A stretch of 31,855 nucleotides of DNA from a virus. A model generated the notes under the pieces. That model was not told the origin of the DNA, did not search any database, and was given only the letters and a program-made list of their open reading frames with translations. How positions within the stretch are numbered: the stretch's first letter is position 1; every line of letters starts with the position of its first letter. Both the position numbers and the translations under genes were made by a program. This document shows positions 3,641-26,929 of the stretch, piece after piece. The DNA lies in IMG/VR virus record IMGVR_UViG_3300042516_002783, positions 1 to 31,855 of that record; one strand, written 5' to 3'.

Positions 3641-4273
3641 ATGCAAAAGAAGATATTGGCAGGAGTCGGCGCAGCAGCAGTCAGTGCGTCCGCTATGGGC
3701 GGATTGGTTGACGGCAGTTTTGAAAACAACGATGTCTATTACGGTTGGGGATTTGTTCAGGGCGGAATTGACACTTCATGGCTTACTACTGCTCCCGACA
3801 ATCTCATTGAGATTTGGGGAGAGTACATGGAGATTTCTGCATATGACGGAACCCGTTGCGCGGAACTGAATGCAAACTACGCTTCTACTCTGTATCAGAC
3901 CGTGGCTCCCGTTGGTGCGGGTGCGGCGGTGAACTGGCATTTCGCACACCACGGGCGTTACGGCACGGACACGATGCGCCTCACGATCACGGATCTCGGC
4001 GCGGATCAGGTGTGGGGCGGTGGCGATGATACCACGCTGTTTACGAATGAGTTTTCCGCAGACAACACCGCGTGGGTGCTGAACTACGGAGGCGTTACCT
4101 CTTTGGGAAATTCCATGCGGTTTGCGTTTGAGGCGGTGAGCGCAGTGGGCGGCAACACGCAGGGGAATCTGATTGACTGGTGTGATTTCGGCGTGGGTGT
4201 TGTGCCTACGCCTGGTGCAATTTCTCTTTTGGCAATCGGAGCATTTATTTGTGGTTTGCGCCGCCGCCGCTGA
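3641..4273 (+). CDS. Secreted beta-sandwich protein with PEP-CTERM sorting tail
   Basis: 210 residues behind AAGGAG, 9 bp after the preceding gene. Residues 1-20 (MQKKILAGVGAAAVSASAMG) are a Sec signal peptide. Residues about 21-185 resemble the secreted beta-sandwich domains typical of PEP-CTERM and DUF642-like proteins: GSFEN start, IEIWGEYM, ELNANYASTLYQTV, a FAHHGRYGTDTMRL segment and GGDDTTLFTNEF. Residues 188-210 are VPTPG, a hydrophobic segment AISLLAIGAFICGL and RRRR, a near-textbook PEP-CTERM tripartite signal of the VPTPGA type seen in Planctomycetota. Phages rarely carry this signal. It probably coats the host envelope or extracellular matrix, perhaps altering adsorption; this is inference. 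Confidence 0.8.
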   Translation: MQKKILAGVGAAAVSASAMGGLVDGSFENNDVYYGWGFVQGGIDTSWLTTAPDNLIEIWGEYMEISAYDGTRCAELNANYASTLYQTVAPVGAGAAVNWHFAHHGRYGTDTMRLTITDLGADQVWGGGDDTTLFTNEFSADNTAWVLNYGGVTSLGNSMRFAFEAVSAVGGNTQGNLIDWCDFGVGVVPTPGAISLLAIGAFICGLRRRR

Positions 4274-7746: not shown

Positions 7747-8184
7747 ATGAACGCCAAACAGATTCAGCGTCTGCTCCGAATTGCGTATCCCCTGTGCTTG
7801 GACATTCCCCGTCCGAAGAAGCACATCTCCATTGTGCTGCACAAGGGTCGCATTGAATCCATTGGCTCCAATCTGCTGAAGACCCACCCCGTGGCAGTGA
7901 AGCACGGCTACCTGTTCGGAGAAATGCATTCTGAACTTGATGCATTTTTGAAACTCGGAGATCGGAAGCGTGGCTTGACCCTGTTCAACATCCGCTTCAA
8001 CCGATTCGGACAGATGCGTATGTCCCGTCCGTGCTTCCGCTGTATGCCGTGGTGCGTGGGGTGCTTTGACGAGATTTGGTACACCACGGACGAAGGAGTC
8101 ATGCTGCACGGCGAGGGGCTGACTCCTATAAATAGTAGGAGTATCAAGGAGATTCTAAATGAAAAAGTTCACCCAATATCTTGA
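7747..8184 (+). CDS. Zinc deaminase-like protein (HxE / PCxxC), 145 aa
   Basis: Residues H61-S-E63 (in GEMHSELDAF) and P95-C96-x2-C99 (RPCFRCMPWC) match the zinc-binding and catalytic motifs of the cytidine deaminase superfamily, where H/C/C hold zinc and Glu moves the proton. Strands flank them as expected: ISIVLHKGRIESIG before, GLTLFNIRFNRFG between, FDEIWYTTDEGVML after. The substrate is unknown; a free nucleotide, RNA/DNA base or tRNA is possible. No ribosome site precedes ATG 7747, which lies directly after a terminator, so expression is puzzling. The end overlaps the next gene by 26 bp, and a late promoter lies inside the 3' end. Confidence 0.7.
   Translation: MNAKQIQRLLRIAYPLCLDIPRPKKHISIVLHKGRIESIGSNLLKTHPVAVKHGYLFGEMHSELDAFLKLGDRKRGLTLFNIRFNRFGQMRMSRPCFRCMPWCVGCFDEIWYTTDEGVMLHGEGLTPINSRSIKEILNEKVHPIS
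8127..8134 (+). promoter_or_regulatory. T4-type late promoter TATAAATA
   Basis: Perfect T4 late consensus TATAAATA, 24 bp before the ATG at 8159. It is centred in an inverted repeat ACTCCTA / TAGGAGT (8122-8142). Confidence 0.8.
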
Positions 8185-9010
8185 TTCGCGCGGACTACAG
8201 GAGGCTCTGTCACGCAAGGAAGCCACCGAGGTTTCACTTGTTGAAGCCAAACTGTCCCGCGTGTTCCAATATGTGGAAGACGATAAGAAGGACTTTGGCA
8301 TTCTCAGCGCGTTCCGTGGCTCCAACTCCGACAAGGAAAACAAGGCTCGTCACGAAGAACTGAAGAGGGCTATTCGTCAGATGGGCTACGGATTCATTGA
8401 ACTCCGTGGCGGCTACAAGGGCGATGAAGGCTATGTGGAGGAGTTGAGTCTGCTCATTCCAAACATCACGAAGAAGGGCATTGTTGATTTGGGGCGGCAG
8501 TTCCAACAGCACTCCGTGATGTACAAGAACGATCAGGACTTCTACTACATTGGCACGAACGAAGAGGCTGGCGTGGGCAAGGTTCTCATGCGCTTCAAGA
8601 AGGGCGAGGGTCAGGACAATCTTGAACTTGCGAAGCACAAGGTCGTGGACTTCTTCTCGCAACTGAAGAAGGGCGCACACTCTGAAAAGAAGTTCGTGTT
8701 CAATGTGAAGCCTGATACGGCAAAGCAAACCGCGCAGGGCAAGGAAGCGGAAGCCAAGGTTGCCCAACGCCACCGTCCAGGCGACATCTGGAAGACATCA
8801 AGCGGGCTGTGGGGCGGCATGGACGATCAGGGCAACTACGAGTACTTTGATGACGAGCAATCCGCCAAGAAGTTCTCAAAGAAACACCGCAAGGGGTATC
8901 GCATCCAAGAGCGCGAAGAGTGGAATTTCGCAAAGGCTGCGTACCTACGGCGAGGCGAAGATCCCAAGTGGATTACAATCTACGAGGATTCCTCTGAAGA
9001 AAACGACTAA
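8159..9010 (+). CDS. DUF3293-like protein, probable late/virion protein, 283 aa
   Basis: Start behind AAGGAGATTCTAA and a perfect late promoter. Residues about 40-150 match my memory of DUF3293: GILSAFRGSNSDKENKARHE, then EELSLLIPN, LGRQFQQHSVMYKN and DFYYIGT. The C-terminal third is Lys-rich, with a compact end domain (GDIWKTSSGLWGGMDDQGNYE...). The N terminus MKKFTQYL resembles phage proteins packaged into proheads, and LQE-A (13-16) and LVE-A (27-30) fit the T4 gp21 protease preference (L/I-x-E). A packaged internal protein is possible but unproven. Confidence 0.6.
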   Translation: MKKFTQYLDSRGLQEALSRKEATEVSLVEAKLSRVFQYVEDDKKDFGILSAFRGSNSDKENKARHEELKRAIRQMGYGFIELRGGYKGDEGYVEELSLLIPNITKKGIVDLGRQFQQHSVMYKNDQDFYYIGTNEEAGVGKVLMRFKKGEGQDNLELAKHKVVDFFSQLKKGAHSEKKFVFNVKPDTAKQTAQGKEAEAKVAQRHRPGDIWKTSSGLWGGMDDQGNYEYFDDEQSAKKFSKKHRKGYRIQEREEWNFAKAAYLRRGEDPKWITIYEDSSEEND

Positions 9011-10013: not shown

Positions 10014-10016
10014 TTT

Positions 10017-10089
10017 GGTCCTGTCGTCTAGTTGGCTAGGATACCGCCCTTTCACGGCGAGAACACGGGTTCGAATCCCGTCAGGATCA
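10017..10089 (+). tRNA. tRNA-Glu (TTC)
   Basis: Acceptor GGTCCTG / CAGGATC (one G-U), discriminator A, anticodon loop CTTTCAC (TTC), T arm CGGG-TTCGAAT-CCCG. No CCA is encoded. Confidence 0.93.
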
Positions 10090-10094
10090 TTTCG

Positions 10095-10183
10095 GGACAG
10101 GTGGCAGAGTGGTCGAATGCGGCGGTTTGCTAAATCGCTGAAGGCAGATATGTCTTCCGAAGGTTCGAATCCTTCCTTGTCCG
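10095..10183 (+). tRNA. tRNA-Ser (GCT)
   Basis: Acceptor GGACAGG / CTTGTCC, discriminator G, anticodon stem GCGGT / ATCGC with loop TTGCTAA (GCT), long variable arm (class II, 89 nt), T arm GAAGG-TTCGAAT-CCTTC. No CCA is encoded. Confidence 0.92.
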
Positions 10184-10184
10184 T

Positions 10185-10255
10185 TCCCTTGTTGTGTAAA
10201 GGTAGCACAGGAGATTTTGATTCTTCTAGTCTAGGTTCGAATCCTAGCGAGGGAA
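10185..10255 (+). tRNA. tRNA-Gln (TTG)
   Basis: Acceptor TCCCTTG / CGAGGGA (one G-U), discriminator A, D stem GTG/CAC, anticodon stem GGAGA / TCTTC with loop TTTTGAT (TTG), T arm CTAGG-TTCGAAT-CCTAG. No CCA is encoded. Confidence 0.9.
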
Positions 10256-10256
10256 C

Positions 10257-10339
10257 GGGAGTGTACTCAAGCGGTCAACGAGGGCAGACTGTAAATCTGC
10301 TGCCATTCGGCTACGAAGGTTCGAATCCTTCCGCTCCCA
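10257..10339 (+). tRNA. tRNA-Tyr (GTA)
   Basis: Acceptor GGGAGTG / CGCTCCC, discriminator A, anticodon stem GCAGA / TCTGC with loop CTGTAAA (GTA), long variable arm as expected for bacterial tRNA-Tyr, T arm GAAGG-TTCGAAT-CCTTC. No CCA is encoded. Confidence 0.93.
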
Positions 10340-10342
10340 TTC

Positions 10343-10414
10343 GCCGTCTTAGCACAGTGGTAGTGCAGTTGATTTGTAATCAACAGGTCATCGGTTCGAA
10401 TCCGATAGGCGGCT
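10343..10414 (+). tRNA. tRNA-Thr (TGT)
   Basis: Acceptor GCCGTCT / AGGCGGC, discriminator T, anticodon stem GTTGA / TCAAC with loop TTTGTAA (TGT), T arm ATCGG-TTCGAAT-CCGAT. No CCA is encoded. Confidence 0.92.
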
Positions 10415-15086: not shown

Positions 15087-17096
15087 TTACATCTGAACCG
15101 TTCTGAACTGCATGGTCTTCAGCGTGGGTTCGTTGTTGCGAATCTTCAGGTCATCGTTGAAGTTGTTCGTGATGTTGCTCACGCGAGTGTTCACTGCGGA
15201 GTTGTTCACCGTGGGTGCTGCGGTCGCTGTCCCCGCCGCTGCCTCTGCCTTTGCAGCACCGAGTGCGCTTTGCTCTGCGGAATACTGCGACACCATCTTG
15301 CCTACCGTGGTGTTCGGTGAAGCAGGAGCGGTGATCTTTGCAGCCTCTTCTGCTGCCTTGGTGTCTTCCACCGAGATAAGCGAACCAACGCCAGGAATGG
15401 ATTCAACCAAGTCGTATATTCCCTTTGGTCCAATCGCATCAGCGATAGAGTTCGCAACGAGTTCTCCGAGATACGAGCCACCGATGCTGCCTGCAATCGT
15501 GCCAAGCGGTCCGAGTGCGGTGCCAAGCGCACCACCACCAAGTCCACCGAGTACAGAACCAAGGGTTCCTACAAGTGTTCTTCCGATCTGTTCTTTCTTC
15601 TGATCAGTAGACAGGTTTGGATCATTCTTTATGTATCCAATATTAAGCGCACCTATAGCAGTGTTGATGAGTGCGCCCAAACCAGGAATGCTGACGAGAG
15701 ACTTTGCAATCTTTCCTGCACTGGACTTTATTCCGCTGCTGAGTGCTTTCACAGGATTCAGGCTTCCGACAATATCCTTGGCTTTGCCGAACATATTGCC
15801 GAAGAATCCACCTGCCTTTGATGCTGCGCTACCAACGGCTTTGCCTACACCCGTGTTTGCAATCGCGGATCCTGCTTTTGCAGCAAACCCGCCGACTGCC
15901 TTCACACCCGAAGAGATGAGTCCCCCTGTTCCACGCACGGCAGAACCAGCAAGCCGCGCTGCGCCTCCTGCCATTGACATTACTCGTTTACCAACACCAG
16001 ATCCAAGCATGGTGGAAATCGTGCTTCCCAAGAAGTCTTTTACGGTTCCAAGAATGGACGACAGTATCCCGCCCTTCTTCTCTCCGTCTTTTCCACCTAT
16101 AGCCTTCTTGACTATTCCTGCACCCTTGCCCTCAAGTTCTGCCTCACGAGCCTTCAGTTCTGAAGAATCGCTTTCTGGTGAGAACCTGCTCTCCAGCATC
16201 GTGCGGATTTTAGTGATCTCTTTGTGTATGGCACCAAGTGTGGACGGTACGCCCTTTCCTGCACCACTAAGGTCAAGACCTGGAATGTCTGATGCACGGG
16301 TGCCGCCGAGTCTTGCAGCCATACCCCTGCCGCTACCACCGCCCAAATCATCAATGTCCAGTTCGCTTGTTTTTCTTCCGCGTCGGGAAATTGTTTCTTG
16401 GAGAGATCCTGAATACTTTTCGATGTCTTCTAGTGTTTCTCTGCGATCTTTCAAGAACCCACTGAGCAGTCCGCCAATCACAGGAACCTTTGCAGCCAAT
16501 CTCTCTGGCAAGGTTTTTTTGAATGACTGTGCTTTTTCTTTCAAGAATTCGCCAAACGATGTTCTCTTTTTGAGTTGATCTTCTACGGGCTTGATGATTT
16601 CATCTAGTTTGGTGGCAATATCAGATTGTTCGCCCTCTGTCTTTTTTGCAAGTTCACGAATAAACCGCAGCCTAGAGTATATCATTTTTGCGTCTTCCAT
16701 AGACGCTTTTAGCGAGCCTTCGGATAGGACAACCGCTTCTTTCATTAACTGATACGCGGCTGCTCCAGCAGGATCGTCTTGATCGAACTTTTGGCGATTT
16801 TCGGATATGAACCTTTCTACCACGGAACGCACACCCTGCTTGTCGGCAGTTCCAATGACATAATTTTCAAGTTCGGAAGTTTCCATGCCCATCGACTTCC
16901 GTTGACGGATAAGTGCTTGCAGTAATCCGATTTGCTGTGCTACGGCTGCGTCTGTTGCGGGAGCGTTTCCCGTTTGTATTGGTGGTTGCTGTGGTGCTTT
17001 GAATTCAGGCTTGAGCGCACCAAAGCGACCGCCGATCCGCTCTTGGCGGGCAGACATCATTCTTCGATATTCTGCATTGGTGACCTTTTTAGCCAT
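15087..17096 (-). CDS. 29: Tail tape-measure protein (gp29-like)
   Basis: 669 residues (T4 gp29: 590), start behind GGGGGAGAA. Residues 1-230 are helical. The middle is a long run of hydrophobic Gly/Ala-rich segments (LGSTISTMLGSGVGKRVMS, GGLISSGVKAVGGFAAKAG, LGSVLGGLGGGALGTALGP) typical of tape measures that must cross the inner membrane. The C terminus ends in an Asn-rich stretch and FRTVQM. It sets tail length by spanning the tube; its size suggests a tail of roughly 100 nm by the usual 0.15 nm per residue. It lies directly after gp26/gp51 as expected for hub-tape assembly. Confidence 0.85.
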   Translation of the reverse strand: MAKKVTNAEYRRMMSARQERIGGRFGALKPEFKAPQQPPIQTGNAPATDAAVAQQIGLLQALIRQRKSMGMETSELENYVIGTADKQGVRSVVERFISENRQKFDQDDPAGAAAYQLMKEAVVLSEGSLKASMEDAKMIYSRLRFIRELAKKTEGEQSDIATKLDEIIKPVEDQLKKRTSFGEFLKEKAQSFKKTLPERLAAKVPVIGGLLSGFLKDRRETLEDIEKYSGSLQETISRRGRKTSELDIDDLGGGSGRGMAARLGGTRASDIPGLDLSGAGKGVPSTLGAIHKEITKIRTMLESRFSPESDSSELKAREAELEGKGAGIVKKAIGGKDGEKKGGILSSILGTVKDFLGSTISTMLGSGVGKRVMSMAGGAARLAGSAVRGTGGLISSGVKAVGGFAAKAGSAIANTGVGKAVGSAASKAGGFFGNMFGKAKDIVGSLNPVKALSSGIKSSAGKIAKSLVSIPGLGALINTAIGALNIGYIKNDPNLSTDQKKEQIGRTLVGTLGSVLGGLGGGALGTALGPLGTIAGSIGGSYLGELVANSIADAIGPKGIYDLVESIPGVGSLISVEDTKAAEEAAKITAPASPNTTVGKMVSQYSAEQSALGAAKAEAAAGTATAAPTVNNSAVNTRVSNITNNFNDDLKIRNNEPTLKTMQFRTVQM

Positions 17097-17125: not shown

Positions 17126-17314
17126 TCACAGTTGTCGTTTTCCGCTGACTTGCTCCCGTTCTTTTTTCAGATGAGCAATCAGCATTTGTATGTATACCTC
17201 TCGTTCCCAAGGCATCATCCCCTCTACTTCGGCAAGGGAGTACCCGTGGTGCTGCATGAGGTTGAAGTTTAGTTGGTAGAATGCCCCCAAGTCATTGTGA
17301 CAGAGGGCTATTGA
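17126..17314 (-). CDS. 51: gp51-like baseplate hub assembly domain, entered by -1 frameshift
   Basis: This frame encodes SIALCHNDLGAFYQL, NFNLMQHHGYSLAEVEGMM, PWEREVYIQMLIAHL and a basic end. The pattern NFxLMxHHxYSLxExExMxPWEREhY is the gp51 signature as I know it from T4-like phages. There is no usable start: the only ATG candidates lie inside the conserved core, and no ribosome site precedes them. The frame is -1 to gp26 and joins it at a slippery T TTT TTT just before the gp26 stop, so the product is probably the C-terminal 62 residues of a 299-residue gp26-gp51 fusion. In T4 genes 26 and 51 are neighbours but separate. Confidence 0.75.
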   Translation of the reverse strand, partial: SIALCHNDLGAFYQLNFNLMQHHGYSLAEVEGMMPWEREVYIQMLIAHLKKEREQVSGKRQL

Positions 17315-17320
17315 AAAAAA
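17283..17320 (-). promoter_or_regulatory. -1 programmed ribosomal frameshift signal
   Basis: Read on the minus strand, GAT TTT TTT CAA TAG ends gp26 and carries the heptamer T TTT TTT in the correct phase (17314-17320). After a 5-nt spacer comes a stem-loop (17283-17308): GCCCTC / GGGGGC, then GTCA / TGAC around a CAA loop. Slippery site, spacer and structure all fit the known -1 frameshift layout. Confidence 0.75.
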
Positions 17321-18024
17321 TCAGACACGCTCTTCAGTTCCGCTTTCGCGGGTGTCTTGCAGTGCGGACAGGTGTACTTGAACTCATAGTGTAGTTCGGG
17401 TGCGGATTGCAAGTAGTCCATGATCTTGGCAAACTGATCAGGCAGCATATTGTCCACGAAGTTTGACAGTTCTTGCGGATTGATGTCCTTTGTTTCGTGA
17501 ACCTGATCGTTCAGTATCACGGACTCAATGCACTTATTTGCGAGATCAAAAGCAATTTCCACCTCGTTCTCATCGTGATTGATGTCGTGTATGGACGGAT
17601 ACCGCAGCACAAGCGACAGATTGTCGGTGATCACCACCGTGCCGTCCACTGCTGTCTTTTCTCGTTGCTTGATGGTGACTTCATCAAGACGGATCTTGAT
17701 TGAGGTGTCCTTGCCGCACTTTGCACACACCACTTGCGGCTTTACCTCTTCGCCCACTGACTTTGATCGTATTTGCAGGAAGGCGTACTCTGCGTCAGCC
17801 ACGCACAGCCTGCGGGTGTCCGTGGAGTTGTTCGTGCAGGCTAGGATCACATTCCGCATGGCATCGTTTATCTGATTCATGCTTTTTGATTGCAGCGCAA
17901 CCAGCAGAACCTTTTCTTCCTTTACCACGAAAGGTCTGAACTTCGTGGTGATGCCAGATACGGGAAGCGTCATGGTGTACTGCGGTAGAGCCGCATTCGT
18001 CAGATTCAGTGTGTTCATATTCAT
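17308..18024 (-). CDS. 26: Baseplate hub protein gp26-like
   Basis: 238 residues, start behind AAAGGATGAAT (MNMNTLNL...). Residues 18-90 match the T4-like gp26 pattern: LPVSGITTKFRPFVVKEEKVL and AFLQIRSKSVGEEV. Cys100-x2-Cys103 and Cys219-x2-Cys222 can form a zinc ribbon. It acts in assembling the baseplate hub, onto which the tape measure and tube are built. The gene ends in a run of seven T directly before TAG, which is a -1 frameshift site into the gp51 frame. A late promoter CTAAATA lies 24 bp upstream. Confidence 0.85.
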   Translation of the reverse strand: MNMNTLNLTNAALPQYTMTLPVSGITTKFRPFVVKEEKVLLVALQSKSMNQINDAMRNVILACTNNSTDTRRLCVADAEYAFLQIRSKSVGEEVKPQVVCAKCGKDTSIKIRLDEVTIKQREKTAVDGTVVITDNLSLVLRYPSIHDINHDENEVEIAFDLANKCIESVILNDQVHETKDINPQELSNFVDNMLPDQFAKIMDYLQSAPELHYEFKYTCPHCKTPAKAELKSVSDFFQ

Positions 18025-18057: not shown

Positions 18058-18771
18058 TCAGCGGGGAGTGTTCATTATGGACTGCATTTTTTGAGGATCG
18101 TAGAATCCATTCACGGTTCCATCGTAACCCATCCGATTCACCTGTCCGCCGTTTGATGTGAGGAACTGCTGTGGAGCGGGTGGTCCGACAAACTCCTCTG
18201 CTGCCACCGCAGTCGGACGAGCCAATCCAATGTATTCGGGTGTGTATTTTCTGAAAGCAAGAGTGATGTCCTGCTTCAGGAAATCGTTGTCCTTGTCGTA
18301 TGCCACTTGCAGATCACCGATAGCCTTTGGATACACCTCTTCCACATAGAAGCGGTGGGCGGGATCATCTGCTCTCGTCATCACGGCTATTTCCAAGTTT
18401 GTCACATAGTCATCGTAATATCCGAACTTGTAGTTGGAGCGGCTGCACACAAGATCCATCCAGTCCTCAAAGAACTTGCGCTCACGCAGATCGGCAGACA
18501 GTATCACGGATAGGGTCATCTCTCCTGCGTAGATTGGTTCATACGGCATATTCCGCGCAGGACCGTAGAAGCGATACGGCGTGGTTGACAGTGAGCGACC
18601 AGGTATGGTGATGGAGTCGCACCGCACCATCAGATTCCTGATGAACTGAATGTTCGTGGTGCCGAAGCCTGCTGGCGTGTTGATCATCACTTCATAGCGA
18701 TTGCTGAAAGCCAATCCGCTTTGAGTGATGCTGTTTATGAGTTCGTTGATGTTTGACGGAACGAATGCCAT
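18058..18771 (-). CDS. Tail-tube / tube-initiator family protein (gp19/gp54-like)
   Basis: 237 residues. After a helical N terminus, residues 24-180 follow the tail-tube fold pattern seen in gp19/gp54-like proteins: NRYEVMINTPAG, VRCDSITIPGRSLST, GEMTLSVILSADLRERKFFE, then VTNLEIAVMT and DITLAFRKYTPEYIG. The C terminus is Gln/Asn/Pro-rich and flexible. Its place between gp26 and gp4 and the lone copy here suggest a baseplate tube initiator (gp54 role) rather than the main tube, but sequence alone does not decide. It starts 2 bp after its upstream neighbour's stop with GGAGGCAG as ribosome site. Confidence 0.7.
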   Translation of the reverse strand: MAFVPSNINELINSITQSGLAFSNRYEVMINTPAGFGTTNIQFIRNLMVRCDSITIPGRSLSTTPYRFYGPARNMPYEPIYAGEMTLSVILSADLRERKFFEDWMDLVCSRSNYKFGYYDDYVTNLEIAVMTRADDPAHRFYVEEVYPKAIGDLQVAYDKDNDFLKQDITLAFRKYTPEYIGLARPTAVAAEEFVGPPAPQQFLTSNGGQVNRMGYDGTVNGFYDPQKMQSIMNTPR

Positions 18772-19362: not shown

Positions 19363-19799
19363 TGGGGTTTCCTGAAGAGGTCGTCTTCGGTCAATATTTT
19401 GAACTCCCATCCTTTGGCTTCCGATACCCGTCTAGCCGCGTCCCATTTAGCCTTGTTGGTGATCCATGTCTGCACTTCTGTGATGTAGCCTCTGGTAATC
19501 CGCTTTCGCTTCTCGGGTTCGCGGCACTGCTTCTTGGGCTTGATTTCCACCAACCATGTCTTGATGCCTTCGGCGGTGCGTATCTCTACCAAGAAATCAA
19601 CGAAATACCTATGAGGCTTCTTGTCTAGCGGATTCATGTACGGAATCACCACTTCTTCGGATGCCCATCGCAGCACATTTGCGCTGCTGTCGCAGAACTT
19701 CATAAACTTCCGCTCCCACATACTACGGTAGACGATCTTCGTGGGATCGCCAATGTATTTGGAGGGGTTGTCTGGCTGAAATTTGCCTTTGTATGCCAT
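19359..19799 (-). CDS. 4: Head completion nuclease gp4
   Basis: 146 residues (T4 gp4: 150). It shows PSKYIGDPTKIVYRSMWERKFM, ASEEVVIPYMNPLDKKPHRY, FVDFLVEI and WLVEIKPKKQ. E29, D68 and E85-x-K87 form the active-site pattern of restriction-endonuclease-like (TnsA-type) nucleases. In T4, gp4 (gp50) is needed to finish filled heads before tail joining. It is the first gene of the minus-strand tail block; 37 bp separates it from the divergent gene 48. Confidence 0.88.
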   Translation of the reverse strand: MAYKGKFQPDNPSKYIGDPTKIVYRSMWERKFMKFCDSSANVLRWASEEVVIPYMNPLDKKPHRYFVDFLVEIRTAEGIKTWLVEIKPKKQCREPEKRKRITRGYITEVQTWITNKAKWDAARRVSEAKGWEFKILTEDDLFRKPQ

Positions 19800-19801
19800 A
19801 C

Positions 19802-19808
19802 ATAAATA
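19802..19808 (+). promoter_or_regulatory. Candidate late promoter ATAAATA in a palindrome
   Basis: ATAAATA lies in the palindrome TACATA-AA-TATGTA (19799-19812), in the 37-bp gap between divergent genes 4 and 48. It is oriented toward gene 48. Confidence 0.55.
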
Positions 19809-19836
19809 TGTAGCCGATTTTCAAAAGGAACTGCCC

Positions 19837-21345
19837 ATGTCAGCCATACCACAATCCCTTTTTGATCCTGCTTTCACTTCCAGTGGAAAGCCGTTCATTT
19901 CCACCAATCGGTACGGCAACGGGCGGTACAGTCAGCAGGTGTACAACGATCAGATTGGTGATGAGGTTCTGCGACAACTTGAGGGAACTCCGAAAGTGAC
20001 CCGAGGCTCCCGCATTCGCCCATCGGTTCTGCGGTATCCCATAGACATCGGAAGCGCACAGGTTCCCCATGTCATGCAGTTCAAGGTGTTCTGGCGGTGG
20101 GAAGCCAAGGACTTGCGGCAGGGATTGGAAAATGCCAAGGCGGAATCCAAAAAGACCATTCAGAATCTGCAAACGCTGTCTGGACTCATAGATGGTGGTG
20201 ATCTCACGCCAGAGTCGCTGTATCGCTCTCCTCTCAGCAACGAGAGCATTGCCGCGCTTGAGAGTATGGTGGTTGATCCCAACACCCTGAAGATCGTGGA
20301 TCCAAACGGAACAGACAGCATTGCGACCCTGTTGCAGACGAATCCTGGTAAAGCCAGGCAGATATTGGAGCAGACGATTATTTCAGAGCAGACCCGACTC
20401 TCTAGCATCGAATCGGAACTGAATAACGGTGCAGGCAAGGTTGGTATGGATGAACAGGAACGGCTGCTTGTGCAGAATCGCTTGAGTGAAAACATTGAGC
20501 GAACAGGCGTGGGTGAGTCCGCAGTAAAGGGAGCGGCGGTGGGAGCAGCCGCAGGTGGTTTGCTTGGATTCTTGTTTGGTGGCGGGAAAGGTGCCGCAAT
20601 CGGAGCGGCTGCGGGTGGAGCAGCAGGAGCAGGACTGGCTGCTGGCGGCGTTGAACTTGCCAAGAACTTTTCAACAGAAGCGGTATACGATCAGATGGTT
20701 TCGGTTTACCTTCCGTTCTGCACGAAAGTAAACAACGAAGACTCGTTTGTCTATGAGGACAGCAATCAGGCAGCAGCAGGCGCAGTGTTTGATGCGCTTG
20801 GTGGCGATGTGTCAAGCGTGGCAGGGCAGGCTGTCGGGGCAGGCGCACAGTTGATCGGAGACAAGTTTGCGCCAGGTGCTGTTCAGGCAGCGCGAGGAAC
20901 AGTGATCAATCCTCGTCTTGAAAAACTGTTCAGGCAAAAAGAGTTCAGAACTTTTTCTTTCGCTTGGGAGTTCTATCCACGCAACAGGACTGAAGTGGAT
21001 GCCATACGGGACATCATTGAGACATTCCGTTACCATGCCCATCCTGCGATGAGCGATCAGCAGGGAACGGCAGAAGAGAATAAGGTTCAGATCGTGCTGC
21101 GTACTCCTGGCGAGTTTGAAATCAGGTTCCTGTCGTCCAATCCTGATCCCAACTCCGCAGGATTCGTAGAAAACGAATACCTACCAAAGATCGGCAGATG
21201 TTCGCTTACTAGTATATCAATCGACTACACACCAAACTCCATATTCAGCACATTCGCAGACAACTCACCCACCGCAGTCACGATGACTCTCAACTTCAGC
21301 GAGTTGGGTCTGCTCACCCGCGAAACGGTAGATAAGGGCTTCTAA
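19837..21345 (+). CDS. 48: Baseplate tail-tube cap gp48
   Basis: Start at Met 19837 behind AAAAGGAACTGCCC; the frame is open to 19783 but that part overlaps gene 4 and the late promoter. 502 residues against 364 in T4. The N-terminal part (LRYPIDIGSAQVPHVMQF) and the C-terminal part (FAWEFYPRNRTEVDAIRDII, FRYHAHPAM, ISIDYTPNSIFSTF and LNFSELGLLTRE) match the gp48 family. It caps the baseplate and starts the tail tube. Between them, residues about 110-290 are extra: a helical stretch, then a Gly/Ala zipper (229-270, GAAVGAAAGGLLGF and repeats) that looks membrane-active. The stop overlaps the next start. Confidence 0.85.
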   Translation: MSAIPQSLFDPAFTSSGKPFISTNRYGNGRYSQQVYNDQIGDEVLRQLEGTPKVTRGSRIRPSVLRYPIDIGSAQVPHVMQFKVFWRWEAKDLRQGLENAKAESKKTIQNLQTLSGLIDGGDLTPESLYRSPLSNESIAALESMVVDPNTLKIVDPNGTDSIATLLQTNPGKARQILEQTIISEQTRLSSIESELNNGAGKVGMDEQERLLVQNRLSENIERTGVGESAVKGAAVGAAAGGLLGFLFGGGKGAAIGAAAGGAAGAGLAAGGVELAKNFSTEAVYDQMVSVYLPFCTKVNNEDSFVYEDSNQAAAGAVFDALGGDVSSVAGQAVGAGAQLIGDKFAPGAVQAARGTVINPRLEKLFRQKEFRTFSFAWEFYPRNRTEVDAIRDIIETFRYHAHPAMSDQQGTAEENKVQIVLRTPGEFEIRFLSSNPDPNSAGFVENEYLPKIGRCSLTSISIDYTPNSIFSTFADNSPTAVTMTLNFSELGLLTRETVDKGF

Positions 21346-24904: not shown

Positions 24905-26929
24905 ATGCCAGGCAATGGAGTTTCTAGAGCATATCTTGACACGGCGGGCGGCACGATTCAGGTCGGCAACCCAGATTTTTTCTTGGATGGCTTGCCTGTA
25001 GCCGTTCAGGGAAATCCCGTGCAGAGTCACGGCAAGAATGAACACAGCAATGCAGTGATGCTAAACGGAACTCCGAGTTTCCTGATCAACGGTATTCCTG
25101 TATGCACATCTGCAAGCCAAGCCAGTTGCGGACACCAAGCCACTGGTTCGTCCACCTTCACGGTCGGAACATCAAGCAGAGGCACGGAAAGCAGAAATCC
25201 TGGTGTTGCTCCACAGTTTTCGTATACTCCTCCCGAGACTCCGCGACCGATATGGGTTGCTACTTGGTACGCCCCCGTCACGGGAAAGACCACTAAAAGT
25301 GCGAGTGCTGATCTTTTGACTTCGGATGATTTCAACAGATACGAATATGTGAAGCCGCTGATATGGTTGACTGCGCCGAATGCATCGCAATCGTACATTG
25401 ATGATTCTGCCACCCAATACTTTTCCAAAATTCAGACCGTTGCTGCATACAGAGACAGAATGAACGGGATTGTGAACGGACTGAATGCCCTGCCAGAGGG
25501 TATGCGAGTGTTGGCTCCAGTCTACTATTGGGGCGGATATGTGTACTACGCTAGTCCGACCGAGAAACGAGCAGACATTGACACCTTCTTGGCAAACAAT
25601 CCGCCAGAGTTTCCTGGCGACTACAACACATACAACGCTGGCAATTTTGCGGTGTACGGAGATCGCGCTCACGGAGTATTTCTCTTCAATCGCAGATCAG
25701 ACAACCTCAAGGGCAGCGGGTGGACACTTGCCTCTATATGGGGAGCCACCGCCATAAATCAGATATATCAAGATTGGAAAGTCATGTGTTCGGGACTGAA
25801 GCAGCGCGGCGCGAACATTGATTATCTTGTGTTTGATACCGAGGGATTTCCCGCAGATGCGTTCAACGCACAGCCAACTGCGGAACTTGCTAAAGTGGCA
25901 CTACAGACAATGCAAGCCGATCCTCGCGCAGAGCAGGAGTGGTATGGCGCACGACCTCTCAATACCGTACTGAAGCAGGACGGAAAGTATCCAAACAACA
26001 GCGCACTAGAGGCAGCCACGACGCGGCACCCGCAAAAGAATCCTAGTTACATCTATTGGAACGGTGGTCTTGCGTCCATAAGAAACGCGAGTCTCACCTA
26101 TTGTTTCCATGATACGGCAAAGGAACACTATCCTGACATCGGCATGAGCAACTACCGATGCTATGCCACGAAAGACCGCGATTGGGCATACGATGTGTAT
26201 GGGCATCCGAAATTTGAGGAAAAAACTGTTGGAGACAGCAGTTCTCCCAATCTCTATTGCTCTTGGAATTTTGATTTTGCTTGGGTAATTGATCCGTATG
26301 ATGATACCCGCATCATCAGAAACGAAACAAATGCCACGACATTGGCTTTGCCAACATTTAAAAACAGCATATGGAACTGTTTCTTGGTGGATATGCAGCA
26401 GATCAGGGCTGCTAGACGGACAAGTCCTGACGATAAACTGCGACCGTGGTTGCGATCCAAGGCACTGAAGCCTAGTTCCGCTTATGTGGTTGGCATAACA
26501 CAGGGGCAAGCAAACTCTCCTAGTAGTGGCGAAAATTTCTATTATGAACTTGTTCGTCACTCTGCGGTCATGGGCGCAGAACACTTCTATTTCTTTAATG
26601 CAACGGATGCTCTTGCCGATGCTCCTGCTGGCATATATGACACTAGTTGCTCTGAACTAAATGCCATAATGACCGAAGTGAATGACTTACTCGGCGGCTT
26701 CTCGCCAGAAGTGGTTACGAAGAGTCGCATTTCCTTCAAGACGGATTATGTGGTGAGCGGCACGAAAGCAGCAGGCGGCGACAACGCAGGCAGGTATGTG
26801 TGGAGAATAACTCCAAAGCCTGGTCTGACGCTCATAAGCGAAACAGGACGACCACTGACGGTGGACTCCGATGGTGGCGCGTGGCTCGTTACATCGTCTG
26901 TCATCATACCTAAATATTCTGTTCAATAA
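24905..26929 (+). CDS. PAAR spike tip fused to a glycosidase-like domain, 674 aa
   Basis: Residues 1-90 are a PAAR domain: MPGNGVSRAYLDTAGG, VAVQGNPVQSHG, MLNGTPSFLINGIPV and CGHQATGSSTFTVGTS, with His/Cys positions for the metal at the tip. Residues about 115-600 form a large alpha/beta unit that looks like a TIM-barrel glycoside hydrolase: PIWVATWYAP, RVLAPVYYWGGYVYY, YLVFDTEGFPADAF (acid residues at a strand end), SAYVVGITQG and AEHFYFFNATDAL. A small beta domain ends the chain. T4 has a bare PAAR tip (gp5.4). Here the tip would carry an enzyme into the envelope. The activity is unproven. Confidence 0.75.
   Translation: MPGNGVSRAYLDTAGGTIQVGNPDFFLDGLPVAVQGNPVQSHGKNEHSNAVMLNGTPSFLINGIPVCTSASQASCGHQATGSSTFTVGTSSRGTESRNPGVAPQFSYTPPETPRPIWVATWYAPVTGKTTKSASADLLTSDDFNRYEYVKPLIWLTAPNASQSYIDDSATQYFSKIQTVAAYRDRMNGIVNGLNALPEGMRVLAPVYYWGGYVYYASPTEKRADIDTFLANNPPEFPGDYNTYNAGNFAVYGDRAHGVFLFNRRSDNLKGSGWTLASIWGATAINQIYQDWKVMCSGLKQRGANIDYLVFDTEGFPADAFNAQPTAELAKVALQTMQADPRAEQEWYGARPLNTVLKQDGKYPNNSALEAATTRHPQKNPSYIYWNGGLASIRNASLTYCFHDTAKEHYPDIGMSNYRCYATKDRDWAYDVYGHPKFEEKTVGDSSSPNLYCSWNFDFAWVIDPYDDTRIIRNETNATTLALPTFKNSIWNCFLVDMQQIRAARRTSPDDKLRPWLRSKALKPSSAYVVGITQGQANSPSSGENFYYELVRHSAVMGAEHFYFFNATDALADAPAGIYDTSCSELNAIMTEVNDLLGGFSPEVVTKSRISFKTDYVVSGTKAAGGDNAGRYVWRITPKPGLTLISETGRPLTVDSDGGAWLVTSSVIIPKYSVQ
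26910..26916 (+). promoter_or_regulatory. Candidate late promoter CTAAATA
   Basis: CTAAATATT overlaps the last codons of the PAAR fusion gene, 24 bp before the next start. Confidence 0.45.

Follow-up and report, generated by a model that had tools for sequence, protein, structure and literature searches.

A predicted -1 ribosomal frameshift that would fuse gp51 to gp26, a candidate tail assembly chaperone of a T4-like phage

Does the gene for gp26 in a T4-like phage specify one protein or two? The question is raised by a minus-strand locus in an IMG/VR fragment of such a phage (record IMGVR_UViG_3300042516_002783; the whole stretch analysed, 31,855 nucleotides, is referred to below as the window), where gp26 ends at a heptamer typical of slippery sites and the -1 frame remains open beyond the stop codon. 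The original prediction, a -1 frameshift producing a gp26-gp51 fusion, gains support from the conservation of the site, the constraint on the -1 frame and the stem-loop of the window's clade. It is very likely that this one gene would yield two tail assembly chaperones, gp26 and the fusion, by way of a -1 slip on T TTT TTT.

The gp26 locus and its junction

The window encodes relatives of gp48, gp53, gp2, gp4, gp5, gp25 and gp32 as well as a tail-tube protein, according to profile matches. The features of the locus, in the 5'-3' direction of the minus strand, are the following.

18058 to 18771, minus strand: tail-tube-family protein, upstream neighbour of gp26 (PHROG_45, tail tube, E 4e-33)
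17308 to 18024, minus strand: gp26, putative short tail assembly chaperone (TAC-N-like), zero-frame product of 238 aa (PF12322, PHROG_150, AlphaFold2)
17321 to 17323, minus strand: -1-frame stop codon TGA, immediately preceding the heptamer (sequence and frame scan)
17314 to 17320, minus strand: in-phase slippery heptamer T TTT TTT, separated from the gp26 TAG by one sense codon
17309 to 17313, minus strand: 5-nt spacer CAATA between heptamer and stem
17283 to 17308, minus strand: stem-loop GCCCTC T GTCA CAA TGAC TT GGGGGC, putative frameshift stimulator (MFE -14.4 kcal/mol)
17126 to 17314, minus strand: -1-frame extension, 62 codons and TGA, gp51-family C-terminal domain (PHROG_634)
15087 to 17096, minus strand: 669-aa Gly/Ala-rich protein with hydrophobic stretches, downstream neighbour, tape-measure candidate by position

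The zero-frame product matches Pfam PF12322 (T4_baseplate, E 1e-55) and PHROG_150 (E 8e-55), its AlphaFold2 model has a mean pLDDT of 88.8, and its C-terminus, ...SVSDFFQ*, is spelled GAT TTT TTT CAA TAG on the minus strand. This gene end with its in-phase heptamer, the 5-nt spacer and the 6+4-bp stem-loop are all as originally described; the strand, left unstated there, is minus. The 62 codons of the -1 frame, proposed to encode a gp51-like domain, indeed match PHROG_634 ("baseplate hub assembly catalyst") with E 1e-23; their translation, SIALCHNDLGAFYQLNFNLMQHHGYSLAEVEGMMPWEREVYIQMLIAHLKKEREQVSGKRQL, begins with SIALCHNDL and ends with QL*. The junction of the predicted fusion reads DFF-SIALCHNDLGAF, and the fusion would be about 299 aa long.

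With a -1-frame TGA touching the heptamer on its 5' side, the gp51 frame cannot be entered from a start codon within gp26. Further downstream, just two formal start codons occur before the domain's midpoint, a TTG at codon 9 (17288-17290), from which the ORF listing gives a 54-aa ORF, and the first ATG, at codon 20; in the window sequence, no Shine-Dalgarno-like run was seen 5' of the TTG. The claim that this frame lacks a start codon and ribosome site of its own thus stands with respect to the ribosome site and to any ATG before codon 20, but has to be qualified for the TTG.

The stem-loop lies 5 nt from the heptamer, within the 5-9 nt expected of a downstream stimulatory structure, and is considerably more stable than 300 synonymous recodings of the -1 frame (mean MFE -6.4, against -14.4 in the window), none of which reaches its stability. 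An in-frame T TTT TTN occurs somewhere in 21% of synonymous recodings of the window gp26, so the heptamer of one sequence is unconvincing, and its evidential weight comes from conservation across relatives.

The gene order is tube, gp26, gp51, tape-measure-like, where the identity of the last gene is positional in the window, tape-measure profiles giving no direct match to the 669-aa gene, and profile-based in HTVC008M and S-PM2: the HTVC008M gene at the same place matches tape-measure PHROGs (E 1e-11) and the S-PM2 gene in the corresponding place is a tape measure by profile. Located between a tail-tube gene and a candidate tape-measure gene, gp26 would occupy the usual slot of a tail assembly chaperone.

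Elsewhere in the window, on the plus strand, the gp48-like tube cap (19783-21345) includes, beyond its T4_tail_cap match, a Gly-zipper stretch (Pfam YMGG, E 8e-5), and a 674-aa protein (24905-26929) is an unusual spike-tip fusion, with a PAAR motif in its first ~76 residues and a long remainder that matches nothing in Pfam. The product of 8159-9010, with matches to the S-adenosylmethionine lyase family (PF23780, E 2e-10) and to DUF3293, is possibly an anti-restriction or host-takeover enzyme. A secreted-looking protein (3641-4273) ends in PTPGAISLLAIGAFICGLRRRR, which resembles a PEP-CTERM sorting tail, NCBIfam giving no more than a sub-threshold match; such a tail is odd for a phage and may hint at the host. 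Eight tRNA genes lie between 1692 and 10414, five of them head to tail within 10016-10414.

Conservation of the junction among T4-like phages

Two panels of relatives were compared, the first consisting of 90 loci (63 unique) and the wider one including 96 distinct heptamer-bearing junctions, with 63 representatives at <80% identity. These junctions come from the window's clade and from Kyanoviridae, Emdodecavirus, Mylasvirus and Menderavirus, and include those of S-PM2, P-HM1, S-CAM1, P-SSM4, HTVC008M, Mosig, Melnitz, phiM19, nt-1 and Moby; two loci of the wider panel are unreadable, L182 (truncated) and L221 (gp26 ORF out of frame past the site). Conservation of the slippery site, which the original prediction called for, is complete in the first panel (a zero-frame heptamer in 90/90 loci), and all 96 heptamer-bearing junctions of the wider panel hold it in phase, 45 as T TTT TTT, 49 as T TTT TTC and 2 as T TTT TTA. 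In 91 of these 96, no more than one codon separates it from the gp26 stop, and the A-site codon is TTT or TTC in 62 of the 63 representatives and TTA in one; in Rhizobium phage RHph_Y68 the site is T TTT TTG. At the other Phe-Phe pairs of the same gp26 genes, T TTT TTY is found in only 2 of 41 cases. Under gp26 codon usage, the fixed choice of Phe codons together with the preceding NNT has a log10 probability of about -28, an over-estimate of the significance since related loci within clades are treated as independent representatives.

The heptamer is wanting in T4 and in Ackermannviridae-type loci, seven of which are the sole readable junctions of the wider panel without one. In these loci (L124-L141) a gp51-like domain nevertheless goes on in the -1 frame (ELMPWHLDML), and the gp26 stop is part of TAATG in some and of TAATT in others; gp51 is unannotated in one such phage, Klebsiella phage T751.

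At every one of the 96 junctions the -1 frame stays open for 56-73 codons, with the first ATG at codon 15 or later in 76, and many relatives have no start codon of any kind until codon 18-20, inside the conserved domain. The -1 residues 5' of any start codon are conserved as well: His6 is invariant and Leu4 is present in at least 90%.

The stem is a property of lineages. In the window's clade its mean MFE is -13.7, compared with -6.7 for synonymous -1 recodings, and it falls in the lowest 5% of recodings in 9 of 10 window-like representatives as opposed to 19 of the 53 others. Lineages outside that clade have different stems or none (L080, L088, L109); a single universal stem was accordingly rejected, marine stems being different. 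The idea that an internal Shine-Dalgarno sequence 5' of the slip site acts as a stimulator was rejected too: GAGG or AGGA is common at -12 to -15 in representatives outside the window's clade, but no more so than the encoded amino acids would require (median fraction 0.29 for those representatives and 0.23 for the window's clade).

Other readings of the junction

The foremost alternative is termination and reinitiation, in which ribosomes would stop at the gp26 TAG and restart at the TTG (17290), releasing a free 54-aa gp51 domain, with the heptamer incidental. The 54-aa TTG ORF does exist in the window, and several relatives have annotated gp51 starts at the junction, namely a TAATG or TGATG overlap in the -1 frame in nt-1, Moby and RHph_Y68 and an ATG just past the gp26 stop in S-PM2. 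However, the eight -1 codons 5' of the TTG are conserved, most of their variation falling on third positions (in the window's clade, 3, 2 and 6 variable columns before the start codon at codon positions 1, 2 and 3, respectively). The late start codons of many relatives and the TTG without a Shine-Dalgarno-like run before it also argue against reinitiation, which moreover leaves the invariant in-phase heptamer unexplained; on balance, it is improbable. In nt-1, Moby and S-PM2 the heptamer is kept alongside an ATG near the junction; relatives of this kind may use both routes, with reinitiation adding a separate gp51.

The junction ATGs of nt-1, Moby, RHph_Y68 and S-PM2 are the deposited gp51 starts, whereas the records of S-CAM1, ACG-2014d, S-WAM1 and Sf-CH1b hold the conserved frame with no annotated gp51. 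The separately annotated gp51 of S-PM2, HTVC008M (Kyanoviridae) and P-HM1 is the same domain in the same -1 frame adjoining the same heptamer as in the window; the difference is that in these records gp51 either stands as a gene in its own right, with a start picked further downstream, or is left out. If frameshifting is the correct reading, the annotation of many T4-like marine and freshwater phage records, in which gp51 is missing or has a downstream start, would need to be corrected.

Transcriptional slippage, whereby RNA polymerase would add a base in the T run and give rise to mRNAs with gp26 and gp51 in one frame, is even harder to credit. Slippage of this type on T runs is known in bacteria, and the run is 7 T long in the window and 8 in some relatives. 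Nevertheless, 49 of the 96 junctions read T TTT TTC and so have just 6 T in a row, as far as is known too few for efficient transcriptional slippage; in addition, the T run keeps a constant codon phase, that of a tandem-slip heptamer, and a stable RNA stem at ribosome-entry distance suits ribosomal slippage. The last alternative, that Phe-Phe is a protein constraint at the gp26 C-terminus and the gp51 frame a decaying or unexpressed remnant, can be practically dismissed: Phe-Phe is the consensus gp26 end even in the absence of the heptamer (T4 ...KEFFELL), but the choice of Phe codons is fixed, as is the NNT before them, and every lineage retains an intact, conserved -1 frame.

Under the preferred reading, -1 ribosomal frameshifting, most ribosomes would stop at the TAG and make the short form, gp26. 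Some would shift into the -1 frame on T TTT TTT, aided by the stem-loop five bases downstream, and read 62 more codons to give the long form of about 299 aa. We infer slippage, its partial efficiency and the chaperone function of the two products from the features described above.

Relation to T4 gp51 and to known tail assembly chaperones

Residues 1-201 of T4 gp51 (249 aa) belong to PF12322, the family of gp26 (8e-55). The final ~45 residues correspond to the -1 domain (E 6e-10 by hhalign), and this C-terminus of T4 gp51 has 43% identity over 42 residues with PspYZU05 gp51. T4 gp51 matches PHROG_150 over its full length (1e-87), and the conceptual gp26-gp51 fusion covers positions 4-278 of 282 of the same profile with 222 bits, against 187 for gp26 alone. 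T4 gp51 being a gp26-family domain followed by this C-terminal domain, the predicted fusion shares its architecture. By these matches, gp26 and gp51 of the window are assigned to the T4 gp26/gp51 family, in which the long form would consist of PF12322 and a C-terminal helical domain, and the window phage would obtain the products of T4 genes 26 and 51 from one gene.

Structures of gp26 and of the -1 domain were predicted apart. A fold search of the PDB returned only weak TAC matches, HK97 gp13 (2ob9, E 2.2) and 3fgx (E 5.7), the latter termed a TAC (PMC9603447); BFVD returned gp26-family proteins, and a sequence search against solved structures gave nothing useful.

The T4 system is like that of the window in that the protein families are the same and the long form carries the domain of the short one. 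It differs in that each form has its own gene, the two genes being divergently oriented and T4 lacking the heptamer, whereas in the window one gene with a predicted -1 shift would serve for both. A separate gp51 with its own start, which had been set against a fusion in advance, was thus found in T4, yet this protein itself holds a gp26-like domain and, being bipartite, supports the fusion as the working form. T4 gp26 and gp51 have both been labelled "hub assembly chaperone" (PMC3004832), a label compatible with the tail-chaperone reading. With regard to the origin of these arrangements, the chances are about even that T TTT TTY frameshifting is ancestral in T4-like phages, that T4-type phages later duplicated the gene, hard-wiring the product as gene 51 and replacing a translational ratio with two separately controlled genes, and that Ackermannviridae took a third route (TAATG/TAATT, no heptamer).

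The slippery site of lambda differs from T TTT TTT of the T4-like phages, and the T4-like short form is longer than that of lambda. The G/GT comparison made in the original prediction probably amounts to more than analogy: a lambda G/GT-type role is the probable function of gp26 and gp51 because their position would be that of tail assembly chaperones. Many short copies would coat the tape-measure protein and a few long copies would recruit tube subunits through the extra domain, as do the short form and the rare long form of lambda (PMC5009743). The lambda G:G-T ratio has been measured at about 30:1 (PMC5009743). The "hub assembly catalyst" gp51 of T4 would thereby be tied to the lambda-type tail chaperone mechanism.

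The closest parallel in other phage families, Vandenendeviridae/Andersonviridae, is the TAC locus of phage Adele, in which, as in the window, the short chaperone gene has a conserved poly-T -1 site near its 3' terminus and, as in window-type loci, the open -1 frame has been wrongly annotated as a gene of its own; the conserved motif there is GTTTTT instead of T TTT TTY (PMC12846349). Among T4-like phages themselves, tail assembly chaperone genes were identified by Vladimirov, Gautam and Davidson (2022, Virology 566:9), as reported by papers that cite this work (PMC10885494; PMC12846349), one of which describes a short gene and a fused long gene (PMC10885494). The other refers to the 2022 study for poly-T signals of -1 frameshifting in the TAC-N genes of T4-like phages (PMC12846349), so that the frameshift variant seems to have been noticed already. 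In a literature search in which that study was represented by the papers citing it, no description of the Kyanoviridae site was found. The chaperone reading of gp26/gp51 is already published, and the window is a well-supported further case of a known kind.
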